Part shown: positions 1-41,528 of the stretch, in pieces
How the letters are laid out: each line of letters begins with the position of its first letter
Position numbering within the stretch: position 1 is the stretch's first letter
Assembly: GCA_023511995.1 (NCBI GenBank)
Contig: JAIMAL010000022.1
Location: forward strand, 1 to 41,528
Reading direction: 5' to 3'
Source of the DNA: Burkholderiales bacterium
Lineage (GTDB): Bacteria > Pseudomonadota > Gammaproteobacteria > Burkholderiales > Thiobacteraceae
DNA length: 41,528 nucleotides
Program-made: the position numbers and the translations under genes
The notes under the pieces: model-generated
What the model saw: only the letters and a program-made list of their open reading frames with translations
The model's database searches: none
Told to the model about the DNA's origin: nothing

Positions 1-75
1 CGCCTGAACTGGAAAACACCTCATCAGGTATTTATGCAATCATACAGCCGCGTTGCACTTCGAGATTGAATCCAC
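1..75 (+). mobile_element. 3' end of an IS30-like insertion sequence (transposase tail plus right end)
   Basis: Frame 1 reads RLNWKTPHQVF and then a short basic tail ending VALRD before a TGA at 67-69. This resembles the extreme C-terminus of IS30-family transposases, which typically reads R-x-x-x-WKTP-x-E/Q-VF. The sequence around 52-75 (GCGTTGCACTTCGAGATTGAA) is placed as an IS30-like terminal repeat would be, directly after the stop codon. The element enters from beyond the left window edge, so its left end and target duplication cannot be seen. The family assignment is by recall of the C-terminal pattern and is tentative. Confidence 0.5.
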
Positions 76-477
76 CTGCAACTGTCGTTGCGCGCCGACC
101 TCGATCCGGCGGTGCATCTTGCGGCTGGGCAAGCGCTGGCGCCGTTACGCGATGAAGGCGTGCTGATCATCGGTTCCGGCAACACCTACCACAACATGAG
201 CGTGATGATGCGCGCGCTAAGGGGTGGCGCGACAGCCATTCATGGATGCGAATTCGATGCCTGGCTCACCGACACGGTGGTCCACCCCGATGCCACCGAG
301 CGTGCGCGGCGATTGTCGGAATGGTTTCGCGCACCCGGTGCACGGGATGCCCATCCGCGCGAAGAGCACCTCATCCCGCTTCTGGTTGCCGCCGGTGCGG
401 GGGGCGCGGACAGCGGCATGAAGTGCTTCGAGGATCGCGTCCTGGGCGCGGTCCAAAGTGCGTTCCGTTTCGGCTGA
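70..477 (+). pseudogene. N-terminally truncated LigB/DODA-type extradiol ring-cleavage dioxygenase
   Basis: The reading frame continues upstream of the first usable start (TTG at 88), as H-L-Q-L-S-L-R-A-D, to about position 70. There it meets the in-frame TGA of the transposase tail. About 135 residues remain. They contain the second-half signatures of DODA/YgiD-type dioxygenases: GVLIIGSGNTYHNM, followed later by REEHLIPLLVAAGA. Intact family members are about 260 residues, and the N-terminal half carrying the first metal-binding histidines is absent. This is therefore a gene remnant cut by the adjacent insertion sequence. If translated from TTG 88 it would give 129 residues that are very unlikely to be catalytic. 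Confidence 0.75.
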
Positions 478-33372: not shown

Positions 33373-34119
33373 ATGCTCGCCATCATCGGAGGCACGGGCC
33401 TCACGCAGCTTGCCAATCTGGAGATCACCCACCGCCAGGTGATCCGCACGCCCTACGGAGAGCCGTCGGGTGCGTTGCTTTTCGGCCGCATCAAGAACGA
33501 GGAGGTGGTCTTCCTTGCCCGCCATGGTTACGGTCACACCATCGCGCCCCATGAGGTGAACTACCGCGCCAACATGTGGGCGCTTTTTTCCCGCGGCGTG
33601 AAAGACGTGGTGTCCGTCGCCTCCGTGGGCGGCATCCATCCCGACCTCACACCCGGGCGCATCGTCATTCCGGACCAGATCATCGATTACACCTGGGGGC
33701 GCAAGAACACCTACCGGGAAGGCAACGAGACGCCGGTGGTCCACCTGGATTTCACCGAGCCCTATTGCGAAGCCATGCGGCAACTGTGCATGCGCGCGGC
33801 GGAGGCGGCGGGGGAGGACTATGTCGCCGGCGGCGTGTACGCCTGCACGCAGGGCCCGCGGCTGGAAACCAAGGCGGAGATTGACCGGCTGGAGCGGGAT
33901 GGCGCCACCATGGTGGGCATGACCGGCATGCCCGAGGCGATTCTGGCCCGGGAGCTGGGGCTGTGCTATGCCCATCTGGGGGTGGTGGCCAACCATGCGG
34001 CGGGGCGGGGCGCCAGCGCCCGCGGCATCCGCCTCACCGATGTGGAAAGCGTGCTCAAGGATGCCATGCAGCGGGTGCGCGTCATCCTGGAGCACCTCGT
34101 CGCCCTGCACGGGAGCTGA
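33373..34119 (+). CDS. mtiP: S-methyl-5'-thioinosine (or thioadenosine) phosphorylase
   Basis: A 248-residue nucleoside phosphorylase of the MTAP family. It begins [13 protein letters not shown] and has [37 protein letters not shown] and [20 protein letters not shown]. Its shortness and the MTGMPEA segment resemble the Pseudomonas enzyme shown to prefer methylthioinosine. The immediate hpt neighbour fits that reaction: phosphorolysis of methylthioinosine yields hypoxanthine for HPRT. Specificity for MTI rather than MTA is inferred, not proven. No MTA deaminase gene is in the window. The gene may have its own promoter at 33338. Confidence 0.85.
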
Positions 34120-35197: not shown

Positions 35198-35282
35198 GCG
35201 TAGCCTCCCCCGCAACCCTCAAGCCCGGCCGCGCGCCGCCGATAATCCCCGTAGCAAAGTCCAGGACCACGTTTCCGCCCCC

Positions 35283-35306
35283 TTGCCGCTGCGGCAATTT
35301 TTGCCG
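35283..35306 (+). promoter_or_regulatory. Alternating TTGCCG/CGGCAA hexamers (possible enhancer or gmhB terminator)
   Basis: TTGCCG (35283-35288), CGGCAA (35292-35297) and TTGCCG (35301-35306) are spaced exactly nine bases apart with three-base spacers. They form two overlapping perfect dyads. The array lies about 55-75 bases upstream of the candidate sigma-54 promoter, a suitable place for an enhancer-binding protein. The first dyad, followed by TTTTT at 35298-35302, also has the form of a short intrinsic terminator for the upstream operon. Confidence 0.5.
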
Positions 35307-35358
35307 GGAGTGAGGACGCCAACAGCGAGAGATGTCGGCGACAAAGACTTGCCATGGG

Positions 35359-35374
35359 TGGAACAGGATTTGCA
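35359..35374 (+). promoter_or_regulatory. Candidate sigma-54 (-24/-12) promoter
   Basis: TGGAAC-AGGAT-TTGCA matches the RpoN consensus TGGCAC-N5-TTGCA except C to A at the fourth base. The invariant GG (35360-35361) and GC (35372-35373) are ten bases apart, as required. The expected start near 35385 leaves a leader of about 84 bases before the aminotransferase gene. This is an inference from one site; no RpoN activator gene is in the window. Confidence 0.45.
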
Positions 35375-35468
35375 AGCTAAGCGTCGACCGGCCCGCGGTC
35401 GCGACGTCACTTGTCGCATGAATGGGCAGTGTTGGAGACCGGCGGCGTCCTCAAGGACAGTGGAGAGC

Positions 35469-36584
35469 ATGAACCCTGAAAAAGACACGTTTGTCACCCA
35501 ACCGTTCCTCCCGCCCTTGGAGGAATTCATTCCCTATTTGCAGAAGATATGGGATAGCCGGGTGCTCACTAACCTGGGGCCTTTTCATCGCGAGTTCGAG
35601 ACCAAACTTTGCGCGTATTTGGGTATTGAACACGTCAACCTGTTCGCCAACGGCACCATTGCCTTGATCGTCGCCTTGCAGGCCCTCCGAGTCACCGGGG
35701 AGGTGATCACCACCCCATTTTCCTTTGTTGCAACGGCACATGCCCTTCTCTGGAACGGGATACGCCCCCGCTTTGTGGACATCGATCCTTTGACGTTGAA
35801 TCTCGACCCGACAAAGATTGAAGCGGCCATTACGCCTCAAACCACTGCGATTCTTGCTGTGCATTGCTACGGCCGCCCCTGCAAAGTTGAGGCCATTCAG
35901 AGGATTGCCGACATATACAACCTGAAAGTGATTTATGATGCGGCGCATGCATTTGGTGTCCAAGACAGCCAGGGCAGCATCTTGCGCCATGGCGATCTCT
36001 CTGTGCTTAGTTTTCACGCGACAAAAGTATTCAATACCTTTGAGGGAGGGGCGATTGTCTGTCACGATCCCAAGATGAAACAGCGTATAGATTACCTGAA
36101 AAATTTTGGCTTCGCAGACGAGGTGACGGTAGTCGCTCCGGGAATCAACGGCAAGATGAGCGAATTCAACGCCGCCCTCGGCGTTCTGCAACTGGCCTAT
36201 GTGGACAAGGCCATTGCGCAGCGCGCGGAGATTGATCGCATGTATCGTTCCCTGCTCGGGGCGGTAAACGGTATCCGTTGCCTGGGCTACGAAGAAGGCA
36301 TCACACCCAATTTTGCTTATTTTCCAGTTCTGGTTGAAGATCAATATCCGCTGACGCGCGATATGCTGTATCAGAAACTTAAGCAGCACAGAATCCACCC
36401 CAGGCGTTACTTCTATCCGCTCATCAGTAACTTTCCAATGTACAGGTCACTGCCTTCTGCGGGGCGAGACAATCTTCCAGTGGCCAATGCGATAGCGGAG
36501 CGGGTGCTGTGCCTTCCGATTTACCCCGGTCTGGAGAAGGAGGAAGTCAAATTTATTGCCTCGCTCATCGCGCAAGAGCAATGA
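35469..36584 (+). CDS. DegT/DnrJ/EryC1-family sugar aminotransferase, VioA-like
   Basis: A 371-residue PLP enzyme of the sugar-nucleotide aminotransferase family. The opening TFVTQPFLPPLEEFIPYLQ and VLTNLGPFHREFE resemble VioA, which makes dTDP-4-amino-4,6-dideoxyglucose. The PLP lysine is Lys186 in SFHATKVFNTFEGG, the cofactor aspartate is in VIYDAAHAFGV, and TTPFSFVATAHA is the typical cofactor loop. The exact sugar is an inference. No rmlA/rmlB genes are in the window. ATG 35469 has GGAG close upstream. Codon use is less G+C-biased than in the preceding housekeeping genes, suggesting acquisition together with the next genes. Confidence 0.85.
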   Translation: MNPEKDTFVTQPFLPPLEEFIPYLQKIWDSRVLTNLGPFHREFETKLCAYLGIEHVNLFANGTIALIVALQALRVTGEVITTPFSFVATAHALLWNGIRPRFVDIDPLTLNLDPTKIEAAITPQTTAILAVHCYGRPCKVEAIQRIADIYNLKVIYDAAHAFGVQDSQGSILRHGDLSVLSFHATKVFNTFEGGAIVCHDPKMKQRIDYLKNFGFADEVTVVAPGINGKMSEFNAALGVLQLAYVDKAIAQRAEIDRMYRSLLGAVNGIRCLGYEEGITPNFAYFPVLVEDQYPLTRDMLYQKLKQHRIHPRRYFYPLISNFPMYRSLPSAGRDNLPVANAIAERVLCLPIYPGLEKEEVKFIASLIAQEQ

Positions 36585-36916
36585 TGGCTCGGTGTCAAGA
36601 CCATGATGTAAGGTCATTGGGCAGTCTGCGTAGTACAGCTGTCGTTGCATATTTTGGAAGTGTGCCTTGTGCCAAGATTGCGTAACGATTCGAGCTTGCT
36701 GCGGGGATGTTCGGCATTTGCGTTGGCTAAGGTATATGTAGCGTAAAAAGTGCGACGGCTGTTCGCTCAGTACAATTATTTAAATAGAGTGACGAAGTTG
36801 GGCGCTGTCTATGACGACGTGGGCCGCTGCGTGTCGTTCAAGGTGAGGAGCGCCCCAGATGAAATCTGGGGCGTCCATCCCAGATGCTGCCCAATTGAGA
36901 CAGGAGGAATAGAAAT
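36585..36916 (+). other. A+T-richer 332-bp intergenic region with promoter-like and hairpin sequences
   Basis: This gap between the aminotransferase and acetyltransferase genes is visibly richer in A+T than the rest of the window. It contains a TACAAT box at 36771-36776 within an AT-rich tract, then a strong hairpin at 36851-36873. No open frame with a credible start was recognised on either strand. It may be the leader of the acetyltransferase-glycosyltransferase pair. Confidence 0.45.
36851..36873 (+). promoter_or_regulatory. Perfect 10-bp hairpin in the leader of the acetyltransferase gene
   Basis: CGCCCCAGAT, loop GAA, ATCTGGGGCG forms a perfect 10-bp stem. It is followed not by T residues but by another CCCAGAT (36879-36885), which could compete for pairing with ATCTGGG. 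It lies 43 bases before ATG 36917, outside the ribosome site. Confidence 0.5.
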
Positions 36917-37501
36917 ATGCTGACACGGGAACAGATTATTGCACTTGGGTTCGCCGAGGTCGGAGAAGATGTACAAATCTCGGAATGGGCGCGATTTTAT
37001 GGCGCAAGTCGTATTCGCATCGGTAATCATGTTCGCATTGACGACTTCTGTATTCTGTCTGCGGGTGAGGGGGGCATAGTGATTGGTAACCATGTGCATA
37101 TCGCGCCATTCTGCTCACTTATAGGACAGGGACGTATTGAATTGAGTGACTTTGCCGGCTTGTCCTCTCGAGTTGCAATTTACTCGAGTAGTGATGATTA
37201 CTCAGGGATGTCACTGACTAACCCTACGGTCCCCCCGGAGTTGAGGAATGTGCAACACGCGCCGGTTTTTCTGGGGCGTCATGTTATTGTGGGTAGTGGA
37301 ACGGTGATTCTTCCCGGTGTCACGCTTGAAGAGGGTGTGGCAGTGGGTGCGCTGAGTCTGATACAAAAGAACTGTTCTGCGTTTGGGGTGTACTTTGGTG
37401 CACCTGCGCGACGGGTGAGTGACCGCAGTCGCAAACTGTTGGAACTGGAGGCAAAGGTGGGGTCTTACGGCCGGGGGACGGCGGAAGGGAAGGCATCGTG
37501 A
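36917..37501 (+). CDS. Left-handed beta-helix (hexapeptide-repeat) acetyltransferase
   Basis: A 194-residue acyltransferase of the LacA/WbbJ/CatB type, probably O- or N-acetylating a sugar of a surface glycan. Hexapeptide repeats are clear: RIRIGNHVRIDDFCILSAGE, GGIVIGNHVHIAPFCSLIGQ and APVFLGRHVIVGSGTVILPG, then VTLEEGVAVGALSLI. The likely catalytic histidine is in NVQHAPVFLG or IGNHVHIAPF. It lacks the N-terminal Rossmann-like domain of PglD-type enzymes. ATG 36917 has an excellent AGGAGG nine bases upstream. The stop overlaps the start of the glycosyltransferase gene. Confidence 0.88.
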   Translation: MLTREQIIALGFAEVGEDVQISEWARFYGASRIRIGNHVRIDDFCILSAGEGGIVIGNHVHIAPFCSLIGQGRIELSDFAGLSSRVAIYSSSDDYSGMSLTNPTVPPELRNVQHAPVFLGRHVIVGSGTVILPGVTLEEGVAVGALSLIQKNCSAFGVYFGAPARRVSDRSRKLLELEAKVGSYGRGTAEGKAS

Positions 37502-40500
37502 GCGGACCGCTTTATCTCAACATCGGCTGTGGCAAGGTCAAACTTCCGGGCTTTGTCAATATCGACCTCGAGCCGGGAGCCGATGTCGTTTGCGATGTGA
37601 CGCGGGGGTTGCCCTACGAGGACGGAACAGTCGATGGTATCTACAGCGAACATTTCATTGAGCACCTGTCGCAAAAGGACATCATTTCTTTCTTCCGCGA
37701 ATGCAGACGCGTGCTGAAGCCGGGGGGACGTGTCCGCGTTGCGACACCCGACCTCGATGTGATCGTACGCAGATATGCCGAGCACGATTGGCGTCAACCG
37801 TGGCTGCAGAAATATGGCTATGATTGGATTCGCAATCGTGCTGAGTATCTTAACATCGCATTGCGCGCCTGGGGCCATGCCTGGGTCGTGAATGAAGAAG
37901 AACTCGCACGTTTGGCGGCGCTGGCGGGACTAGAGGACCCTGTTCGCTGCATGTTGAACGAGAGCCAGGACGAAATGTTTTGCGGCCTTGAAACCCGGGT
38001 CGAATCCACACTGATCATGGAATTCCGGAAACGGAGAGAGAGGTTCGGTGAACAGCCCCTTGTGTCTATCGTCATACCGGCATTCCGCTCCGAGTTTCTT
38101 GACGAATGTCTCCAGAGTGCGCTGGCGCAGACCTACGAAAACATCGAGATTCTGGTCCTTGACGATAGCGCATCGCCAAAGGTGGAAAAGATCACGGCCG
38201 CGTATAGCCGGTGCGATCAGCGGGTCGTCTACTATCGGAACGAGCCCCCGTTGGGCGAGGCAGCCAATCTGACAAAGGGCATCCGGCTCGCGCGCGGTGA
38301 GTTCATCAAACCCCTCTACGATGACGATACCCTTGCGCCGGATGCGGTTGCCCGATTACTGGCTGCGCTTCGTGCCACACCGGAGGCGCGGCTTGCAGCC
38401 GGTCGTCGAGTGCCGATCAATGAAGGCGGCGTCGAGCTGGAGCCGGGTGTGTTGGGGGTTGCGTTGGCGGACGTGGACGGCCGCCTCCGTGGCACGGCCG
38501 TTATCGGTCGGATCCTGTCCAGCGGCGTCAATATGCTCGGCGAGCCCACCTGCATGCTGTTCCGCCGCGCTGACGCCGTGGCAATCGACGAGCCCAACGT
38601 CATGTCGCTGTTCGGCCGTCTTTGCGTCGGTATCGGCGATGTGTGCCTAGCCCTCCACCTGCTTTCGCGTGGCGATCTCGCCTACGTGGCCGAACCAGTT
38701 GCCAGATTCCGCCTCCACCCGGGGCAGACACAACGTCGGCCGATGGTGCGTACTGCGGTACAGGCCACGTGGGCCTATGTTCGGGAGCAAGCGGTTCGTC
38801 TTGGCTTCCCTCTGTCTGGGCCGGAAATGGCGCAGCCAACACACCACCGGGAGCGTTCTTGTGCCACGGACACCGAATCGCGCGAAGCTTATCGTGTCTG
38901 GCGCTCGAAACGAACCCTGACCGAGGTGGATGCGGAGGTCTTTGCCGAGCGGATGATGTTGAAGTGGGGGCAGCGGCCGGCCTTCGTGTGTGTGCTGGTG
39001 CTCGAGCCGGGGCAGGAGGCGCTGCTGGCGGATACCATCGATTCCCTGGCGGCCCAGTTCTACCGCGACTGGCGGCTAGTGGTGGTGGCGCCGTTTCCGG
39101 CGCCGGATCCTGCCTTCAACGAGGTGGAACAACTCTTCTGGATCGAGGCGGACTCGCCGGAGGCCAAGGTGGAGGCCATCAACGGCGTGGCCGCTTCGGT
39201 GGGCACGCACTGGTTGTGGTTCCTGCCGCCGGGTTCGCGCCTGGAGCCTCACACTTTTCTGCGCTTCGGCGATTACATCGATCTCCGGCCGGACTGGCGC
39301 CTGATCTATGCGGACGACGACCGGCTGATGGCGGACGGAGAGTTCGGGGAACCCCGCTTCAAGCCGGACTTCAACCTCGATCTGGCGCGCTCCATGGATT
39401 ATTTCGGCCCCGTGCTCGTGCGCGCGGATGCGCTGCTCACAGCCGGTGGGGCTTCCCTTTTGCAAGGGGCGGAGACCTACGACGTGACCCTGCGTCTCCT
39501 CGATGCCTTTGGTGAGGGGGCAATCGGCCACGTGGCGGATGTGCTGGTCCATCTTCCCCGGGCCCACGCCGCGTCAGCCAACGAGGAAGCCGCGCGTCTT
39601 GCGGTGGCCATGCATCTCGAGCGCCGGGGCGTGAAGGCCACGGTGGAGGCCGGCTATGCTGCGGGCACCCATCGGGTGATCTACGCGCGGCAGTGGGATC
39701 CGCTGGTCACGATTATCATTCCCAACCGTGACAAATATGAATTCCTGCAGCCCTGTGTGGAAAGCCTCCTGGAGAAGACCGCCTATCCCCATTACGAAAT
39801 CCTGATCGTGGATAACCGCAGCACGGACCCCGACGTGCTCGACTACTATGGGCAACTGCAGGCCCGCTATCCGGAGCGCATCCGCATCCTGCGCTATGAC
39901 GCGGAGTTCAATTTCTCCGCCATGAACAACCTGGCGGCACGGGAGGCGCGGGGCGAATATCTGCTTCTGCTCAACAACGATACCCAGATCGTCCAGGCCG
40001 AGTGGCTGGAGCGCTTGCTCCAGCACGGCCAGCGCCCGGAAGTGGGCGTGGTGGGGGCGCGGTGTGTCTATCCGGAGACGGGCAAGTTGCAGCACGCCGG
40101 GGTGGTGCTGGGGCTGACGAGTCTTGCAGACCATCCCTTTAATGGCCAACTGGGGCTGGATGAACCGGGGTACATGAACCGTGCCCAGGTGGATCAGAAC
40201 TACTCCGCCGTCACCGCTGCCTGCATGCTGGTGCGCAAGGCGGTCTATTTCCAGGTGGGCGGGTTTGACGAAATCGAGCTCCCCGTGCTGTTCAACGACG
40301 TGGACCTTTGCCTGAAAGTGGGCAAGGCCGGTTACAAAGTGGTGTGGACACCCTATGCCACGGTGGTGCATCACGGCTCGACGAGCCTCAAGGGTGAGGC
40401 CGTCGATCTCATGAAACTCGCCTTGGGGCAGGAGCGGGCAAAGCGCGAGCGGGCAGCCATGATGGCGCGCTGGATGCCGATGCTCGCCCGTGACCCGGCC

Positions 40501-40734
40501 TACAATCCCCACCTCAGCCTGCGGCGACCGGGTTACCAGGTGGAGACCTCCATCGTCATCGACTGGGATGTGAACTTCCACGACCGCCCCCGGCTGCTGG
40601 GCCTGCCGTTGACGATGTTCGTCGACGCGGAGGGCGTGCTGCGCGGGCAGCACGTCGGCGTCCTTACCGAGGAGATCCTGGTAAAGAAGCTCGGCGAGGC
40701 CGGCTTCTCCGTGGCGAGGGAGCCTCAGCCGTGA
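37498..40734 (+). CDS. Multidomain methyltransferase-glycosyltransferase (GT2) with a foreign TlpA-like C-terminal tail
   Basis: A 1078-residue protein. Residues 1-175 form a SAM methyltransferase domain (LNIGCGKVKLPGFVNIDLEP, VLKPGGRVRVATPDLD). Residues 188-430 are a GT2 domain (SIVIPAFRSEFLDECLQSAL, LVLDDSAS, YDDDT). About 490-730 is a degenerate GT-A-like region (LAAQFYRDWRLVVVAP, YADDDRLM), and 735-1030 a full GT2 domain (TIIIPNRDKYEFLQPCVESL, LLLLNNDTQI). Such proteins build O-antigen or capsule chains. After FHDRPRLLG (residue 1034), where relatives continue into another GT domain, the frame switches to a thioredoxin/TlpA-like end. GTG 37498 is preceded by GGGAAGG and overlaps the acetyltransferase stop. 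Confidence 0.85.
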   Translation: MSGPLYLNIGCGKVKLPGFVNIDLEPGADVVCDVTRGLPYEDGTVDGIYSEHFIEHLSQKDIISFFRECRRVLKPGGRVRVATPDLDVIVRRYAEHDWRQPWLQKYGYDWIRNRAEYLNIALRAWGHAWVVNEEELARLAALAGLEDPVRCMLNESQDEMFCGLETRVESTLIMEFRKRRERFGEQPLVSIVIPAFRSEFLDECLQSALAQTYENIEILVLDDSASPKVEKITAAYSRCDQRVVYYRNEPPLGEAANLTKGIRLARGEFIKPLYDDDTLAPDAVARLLAALRATPEARLAAGRRVPINEGGVELEPGVLGVALADVDGRLRGTAVIGRILSSGVNMLGEPTCMLFRRADAVAIDEPNVMSLFGRLCVGIGDVCLALHLLSRGDLAYVAEPVARFRLHPGQTQRRPMVRTAVQATWAYVREQAVRLGFPLSGPEMAQPTHHRERSCATDTESREAYRVWRSKRTLTEVDAEVFAERMMLKWGQRPAFVCVLVLEPGQEALLADTIDSLAAQFYRDWRLVVVAPFPAPDPAFNEVEQLFWIEADSPEAKVEAINGVAASVGTHWLWFLPPGSRLEPHTFLRFGDYIDLRPDWRLIYADDDRLMADGEFGEPRFKPDFNLDLARSMDYFGPVLVRADALLTAGGASLLQGAETYDVTLRLLDAFGEGAIGHVADVLVHLPRAHAASANEEAARLAVAMHLERRGVKATVEAGYAAGTHRVIYARQWDPLVTIIIPNRDKYEFLQPCVESLLEKTAYPHYEILIVDNRSTDPDVLDYYGQLQARYPERIRILRYDAEFNFSAMNNLAAREARGEYLLLLNNDTQIVQAEWLERLLQHGQRPEVGVVGARCVYPETGKLQHAGVVLGLTSLADHPFNGQLGLDEPGYMNRAQVDQNYSAVTAACMLVRKAVYFQVGGFDEIELPVLFNDVDLCLKVGKAGYKVVWTPYATVVHHGSTSLKGEAVDLMKLALGQERAKRERAAMMARWMPMLARDPAYNPHLSLRRPGYQVETSIVIDWDVNFHDRPRLLGLPLTMFVDAEGVLRGQHVGVLTEEILVKKLGEAGFSVAREPQP
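40600..40734 (+). pseudogene. C-terminal remnant of a TlpA/thioredoxin-like gene, fused in frame to the glycosyltransferase
   Basis: The last 44 codons of the glycosyltransferase frame read GLPLTMFVDAEGVLRGQHVG, then LTEEILVKKLGEAGF. This is the cis-proline strand (GLP-x-T) and terminal helix of a TlpA/ResA-type redoxin. The catalytic CxxC half is missing. The next gene is a CcdA-type protein, and tlpA-ccdA is a common pair, so these codons are probably the leftover end of a tlpA-like gene. Confidence 0.75.
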
Positions 40735-41462
40735 TCGAAGTCGGCGGTGTGAGCGTGCTGGTGGCGTTCCTAGCGGGGCTAGTGTCCTGCCTCTCGCCCT
40801 GCGTGCTGCCGCTGGCGCCAGTTTACGCAGGCAACCTGGCCAGTGGCTCCCTATCGGCGACCTGTGCCGCGAGCCGGCGGGCGCCGGTGCTGCACGCGGT
40901 CGCCTTCATGGCCGGGTTCACGCTGATGTTCACCGCGCTGGGGGTATCGGTTGGGCTGGCCGGGTACATCCTGCGCGACCAACTCTCGCTGCTCCAGAAG
41001 GCCGGCGGCGTGTTTCTGATTGTGCTGGGACTGCACATGAGCCGGCTCATCGAGATTCCGGCATTCTACCGCGGCCTCGGCGCCACCTGGGAGGCGCGGG
41101 CCGGCAATCCATACCTGCGCTCCTTCCTCGTCGGTAGCTCGATCTCCGCCGGCTGGCTGCCCTGCATCGGCCCCACGCTGGGCACGATCCTGACGCTGGC
41201 GATCACCTCGGGCACCGTCGTGCAAGGGGGTGTGCTGCTGCTGGTGTACTCGCTGGGCTTGGCTGTCCCGTTCGTCGCCTTCGGCGCGACGCTGGCCCGC
41301 ACGCCGGGCCTGCTGCGCTGGCTGAACCGGCACCATGACGCGGTCCGCTTCGTCGCGGGCGTCACGCTGATCGTGATGGGCATCGTCCTCTTCACGGGCA
41401 CGCTGCAGCGGCTGAACGGCTATTTCCGCTTCTCGAGTGCAGGTCTGGGAGCGCAGATCTAG
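40731..41462 (+). CDS. CcdA/DsbD-type cytochrome c biogenesis transmembrane protein
   Basis: A 243-residue inner-membrane protein with about six helices that carries electrons from cytoplasmic thioredoxin to periplasmic thiol partners. The redox cysteines are in GLVSCLSPCVLPLAPVY (helix 1) and AGWLPCIGPTLGTIL (helix 4), the paired positions of CcdA. GTG 40731 overlaps the preceding stop (GTGA). A partner redoxin would be expected upstream, but only its C-terminal remnant remains. A small gene starting downstream at 41509 might supply one. Confidence 0.93.
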   Translation: MIEVGGVSVLVAFLAGLVSCLSPCVLPLAPVYAGNLASGSLSATCAASRRAPVLHAVAFMAGFTLMFTALGVSVGLAGYILRDQLSLLQKAGGVFLIVLGLHMSRLIEIPAFYRGLGATWEARAGNPYLRSFLVGSSISAGWLPCIGPTLGTILTLAITSGTVVQGGVLLLVYSLGLAVPFVAFGATLARTPGLLRWLNRHHDAVRFVAGVTLIVMGIVLFTGTLQRLNGYFRFSSAGLGAQI

Positions 41463-41508
41463 CCGGTAGGTTGGCAATGGCCCGCCGGCGACAAATGGAG
41501 GTGATGAG

Positions 41509-41528
41509 ATGGACAGGCGTCGCATGAT
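41509..41528 (+). CDS. Start of a further gene, cut by the window edge
   Basis: ATG 41509 is preceded by GGAGGTGA, a near-perfect ribosome site, and reads MDRRRM before the window ends. The basic start would suit a signal peptide of an exported protein such as a redoxin, but six residues cannot establish this. Confidence 0.5.

Follow-up and report, generated by a model that had tools for sequence, protein, structure and literature searches.

An apparent glycosyltransferase-redoxin fusion near a contig tip is very probably an assembly chimera

Our results suggested that the fusion of a glycosyltransferase to a redoxin-like tail, encoded close to the right end of contig C22, is very probably an assembly chimera formed at a contig tip and not a real feature. 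The window, that is, the whole stretch of DNA analysed here, is the complete contig C22 (41,528 b, with the contig end at 41528), one of the 44 contigs of a 2,507,758-b genome (G000) that is rated 99.98% complete with 0% contamination. Both halves of the glycosyltransferase gene are present in this genome, both are collinear with a single locus of genome G001, and both end in unrelated sequence. In support of mis-assembly, the junction lies near a contig end, the true continuation of the gene is found at another tip, and a relative carries one continuous locus. This relative, G001, is the sole same-genus genome compared, and L006 is its full-length glycosyltransferase locus.

The fusion is encoded by an open frame on the + strand (37498-40734, 1078 aa counted from the first GTG) which has no stop across the junction. 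Pfam analysis of the frame identified methyltransferase and GT2 domains, the GT2 stretches lying at residues 190-315 and 737-965. The frame changes character at about 40,600-40,612, where the sequence passes from RPRLLGLPL to TMFVDAEG; the alignments of the closest homologues end at query residue 304-305, so that the chimeric join falls in the codons of LGLPL(T) (40597-40614). Homology to G001 stops at position 40611 of the window. The genuine part of the glycosyltransferase, truncated by the contig break, was delimited as 37498-40611 (+) from the open frame, the Pfam domains and the homology to G001 contig C1 down to 94,916. The remaining 917 b or so between the junction and the tip (40612-41528) have no homology to the collinear G001 locus. 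Thus, the switch from glycosyltransferase to redoxin-like sequence that the original prediction had read at RPRLLG/LPLTMFVDAEG was confirmed by the open frame and by the end of the G001 homology. The CcdA gene that it placed downstream is also there: a CcdA-like gene on the chimeric tail (40731-41462, + strand), overlapping the stop of the frame by 4 bases, belongs to the CcdA/DsbD transmembrane family (DsbD_TM, PF02683, 64 bits versus a curated cut-off of 27.1).

We then consider the redoxin-like tail itself (40603-40734, + strand), which lies outside the glycosyltransferase and probably derives from another organism. Its 43 residues from 40603 matched no Pfam family, and a PDB sequence search with the 44 aa from 40600 matched nothing. 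Among plasmid-borne proteins, 35 records were retrieved at E values up to 10 (best E 0.02, identities 36-48%), and 17 of the 20 records listed are annotated as TlpA, DsbE, thiol:disulfide interchange protein or redoxin. In the same genome, where a redoxin search gave 13 matches, 12 of them above the cut-off, one redoxin from a set of 32 loci aligned with the tail (23 aa, 43% identity, E 0.009). These short and weak matches suggest that the tail is likely a TlpA C-terminus. The resemblance to the TlpA/DsbE C-terminus covers some 40 residues and is weak. The N-terminal half of TlpA-like redoxins bears the CXXC motif; Pfam found no redoxin domain, with such an N-terminal half, either in the whole 1078-aa frame or in the 43 aa at its end.

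The original prediction would have fallen if homologues in many genomes had the same C-terminus, and such homologues were looked for. A 344-aa query across the junction had matches in 45 of 60 related genomes (its own included), and the alignments of the 19 best matches other than the window end at query residues 275-307. With 21 loci from a further scan, 40 loci were examined, of which 29 align to residue 300 or beyond. In all 29, as judged by eye, a G-x-Y-R motif comes next (in most cases GGSGEYR or GCGEYR), and the redoxin tail is present in none; note that two of the 29 (L005 and L024) look like one contig, so that the independent loci number at most 28. In the other 11 loci the alignment ends at residues 274-282 (8 loci) or the match is short (3 loci). 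A C-terminus common to the relatives was thus rejected.

The remainder of the gene was found elsewhere in the same genome. The G001 glycosyltransferase, 75% identical to the 344-aa query stretch up to the junction, differs from the window in extending into a further ~330 aa without Pfam match. When this C-terminal part was searched in the genome of the window, it was found in one place, positions 121933-122862 of contig C6 (78% identical), near the right tip of that 124,416-b contig. Between about 20.5 kb and 40,611 the window follows G001 C1 collinearly, the G001 positions descending from about 119.7 kb to 94,916, and C6 resumes G001 C1 at 94,876 and follows it down to about 84.0 kb. The two homologies end 39 b apart within one G001 gene, and G001 carries the locus in one piece. 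The genes downstream of the glycosyltransferase on C6 are the same as those downstream of L006 and keep the G001 order; flagellin, fliD and fliS adjoin on this side, a position that points to a probable role of the intact gene in flagellin or surface glycosylation. Within the collinear region, window positions 35218-38055 have no listed G001 match and show a G+C dip to about 0.51-0.55; this segment encodes an aminotransferase of the DegT type as well as a hexapeptide transferase, and resembles a variable module for surface sugars next to the flagellin locus.

These data bear directly on the original prediction, in which a genuine deletion would have joined the glycosyltransferase gene, in frame, to an adjacent tlpA-ccdA operon. 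The frame is indeed open across the junction, and GLPL is plausibly encoded on both sides of it; once two pieces are joined on the same strand, the frame would by itself be read through in about one case in three. However, the supposedly deleted part lies near the C6 tip, followed by its downstream neighbours in G001 order, and a search of G001 for the partner gene gave no CcdA match (E <= 0.001) anywhere. Since the C-terminal part of the glycosyltransferase gene was not lost, we rejected the deletion fusion, which we consider barely conceivable. With it fall two consequences drawn by the original prediction: that CcdA has lost its local redoxin, which does not follow from a mis-assembly, and that the glycosyltransferase has a novel end, its true C-terminal part being on C6. 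Mis-assembly, which had been offered as the alternative, is instead supported by the gene remainder near the C6 tip and by the collinearity of C22 and C6 with one G001 locus.

Like the C22 tail, the terminal 1,554 b at the right tip of C6 gave no match in the compared part of G001. This tail contains one frame without Pfam match and a 298-aa frame (L065:3037-3930) that matches ThiO (TIGR02352) at residues 7-165 and then, in frame, NEW3/NPCBM_assoc at 186-258; the ThiO match is below the full-length cut-off, as expected of a fragment. Another possibility could be that foreign DNA was truly inserted in the glycosyltransferase gene, C22 and C6 being the flanks and 39 b of target having been lost. 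An insertion, too, would leave the gene halves at two contig tips with unrelated sequence after each, but in the C6 tail itself two unrelated genes are joined in frame, and the frames scanned contained no mobility domain.

The insertion also has to account for a second gene, der, which is split in the same way. The right end of C20 (L133:1734-2999) encodes Der profile positions 1-167 followed by a DUF4340 domain, and the left end of C10 (L084:1-1638) encodes a YbbR protein followed by Der positions 178-432, the C10 join falling in the conserved P-loop GRPNVGKST. In G001, der is a single frame from C8:33,392, in which homology to C20 stops at 33,904 and homology to C10 starts at 33,914, 9 b apart. 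Since the GTPase Der is an essential protein in those bacteria where it has been studied, a real disruption of der is not credible. The same two-sided defect, a gene split over two tips with unrelated tails, is seen at two loci and four tips. Both the mosaic nature of the C6 tail and the like pattern at der speak against one inserted element, and we regard an insertion in the glycosyltransferase gene as very improbable. It is extremely improbable that some cells carry the gene interrupted by acquired DNA including the tlpA end and ccdA; if they did, a redoxin-tailed glycosyltransferase would adjoin the flagellin locus.

Some evidence speaks against mis-assembly: the composition, the 0% contamination rating and the failure to find a donor of the CcdA gene. 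The composition of the C22 tail (z -0.26) does not mark it as foreign; the corresponding values are -1.6 and -2.4 for pieces of the C6 tail and -0.9 for the glycosyltransferase end. In favour of mis-assembly, on the other hand, the CcdA of the window is the sole CcdA match in its own genome and has none in G001, and among the matches listed its identity is at most 36% in the 60 related genomes (own included) and at best 43% in 398 genomes of the phylum (E <= 1e-20). The plasmid search gave 375 records, every one below 60% identity, and that of viral contigs gave no match. Thus, no donor was found among plasmids, viral contigs or the phylum sample.

As a control, we compared the sequences at 79 contig ends and those of three small contigs. 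Sequences of 73-77 b are common to many ends; these are probably the termini of repeats at which the assembly broke, and their length suggests de Bruijn assembly with k=77. They fall into more than one family, window positions 1-77 being an example. Twenty-one tips have no overlap partner, including C22 right, C6 right, C20 right and C10 left, in a count that leaves out the right ends of C39-C41, tips reading N being uninformative. The tips were also compared with 836,001 b of G001, about a third of that genome. Six of the partnerless tips have listed G001 matches: in five the homology starts 745-1,554 b inward, and in the sixth, C21 right, it reaches to within about 100 b of the tip. At the left end of C16 (L090:1-959), 959 b without homology to the compared part of G001 precede a MoaA-like frame, and this end is possibly another chimeric tip. 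Among the 25 overlap-sharing ends with listed matches, the homology comes to within 250 b of the tip in 17 and stops further away in 8. Since these 8 lack tip homology likewise, its absence is not diagnostic alone, and the weight of the case rests on the two genes that are each split over two tips.

The assembly chimera could have arisen as follows. One long glycosyltransferase gene, located beside flagellin, fliD and fliS, would have been broken by the assembly, leaving one half at the end of C22 and the other at the end of C6, with a loss of about 39 b in between. The free C22 end would then have been extended with DNA foreign to the locus, the redoxin tail and CcdA, and the free C6 end with the unassigned frame, the ThiO start and the NEW3-domain piece. 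The tails may come from other organisms in the sample, linked by chimeric reads or by short-overlap joins. In both genes the joins fall where the two sides can encode similar residues (GLPL in C22, the P-loop in der), as would be expected if short similarity had mediated the joining. A hairpin as cause of the gap found no support: the folding value of the G001 sequence at the glycosyltransferase gap (-21.7) is within the spread of 200 same-length windows (-19.4 +/- 5.5), and the shorter stretch at the der gap gave -10.3.

Finally, these results call for caution. The genome is rated nearly complete and free of contamination, yet at least two of its genes (the glycosyltransferase and der) are cut in two, and unrelated pieces sit at four contig tips (C22, C6, C20 and C10). 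In such genomes, a fusion protein encoded close to the end of a contig should be compared with the other contig tips before it is believed. Chimeric contigs are an artefact class of short-read (meta)genome assembly, and the tips described here resemble them in having unrelated sequence joined at tips beside small gaps.
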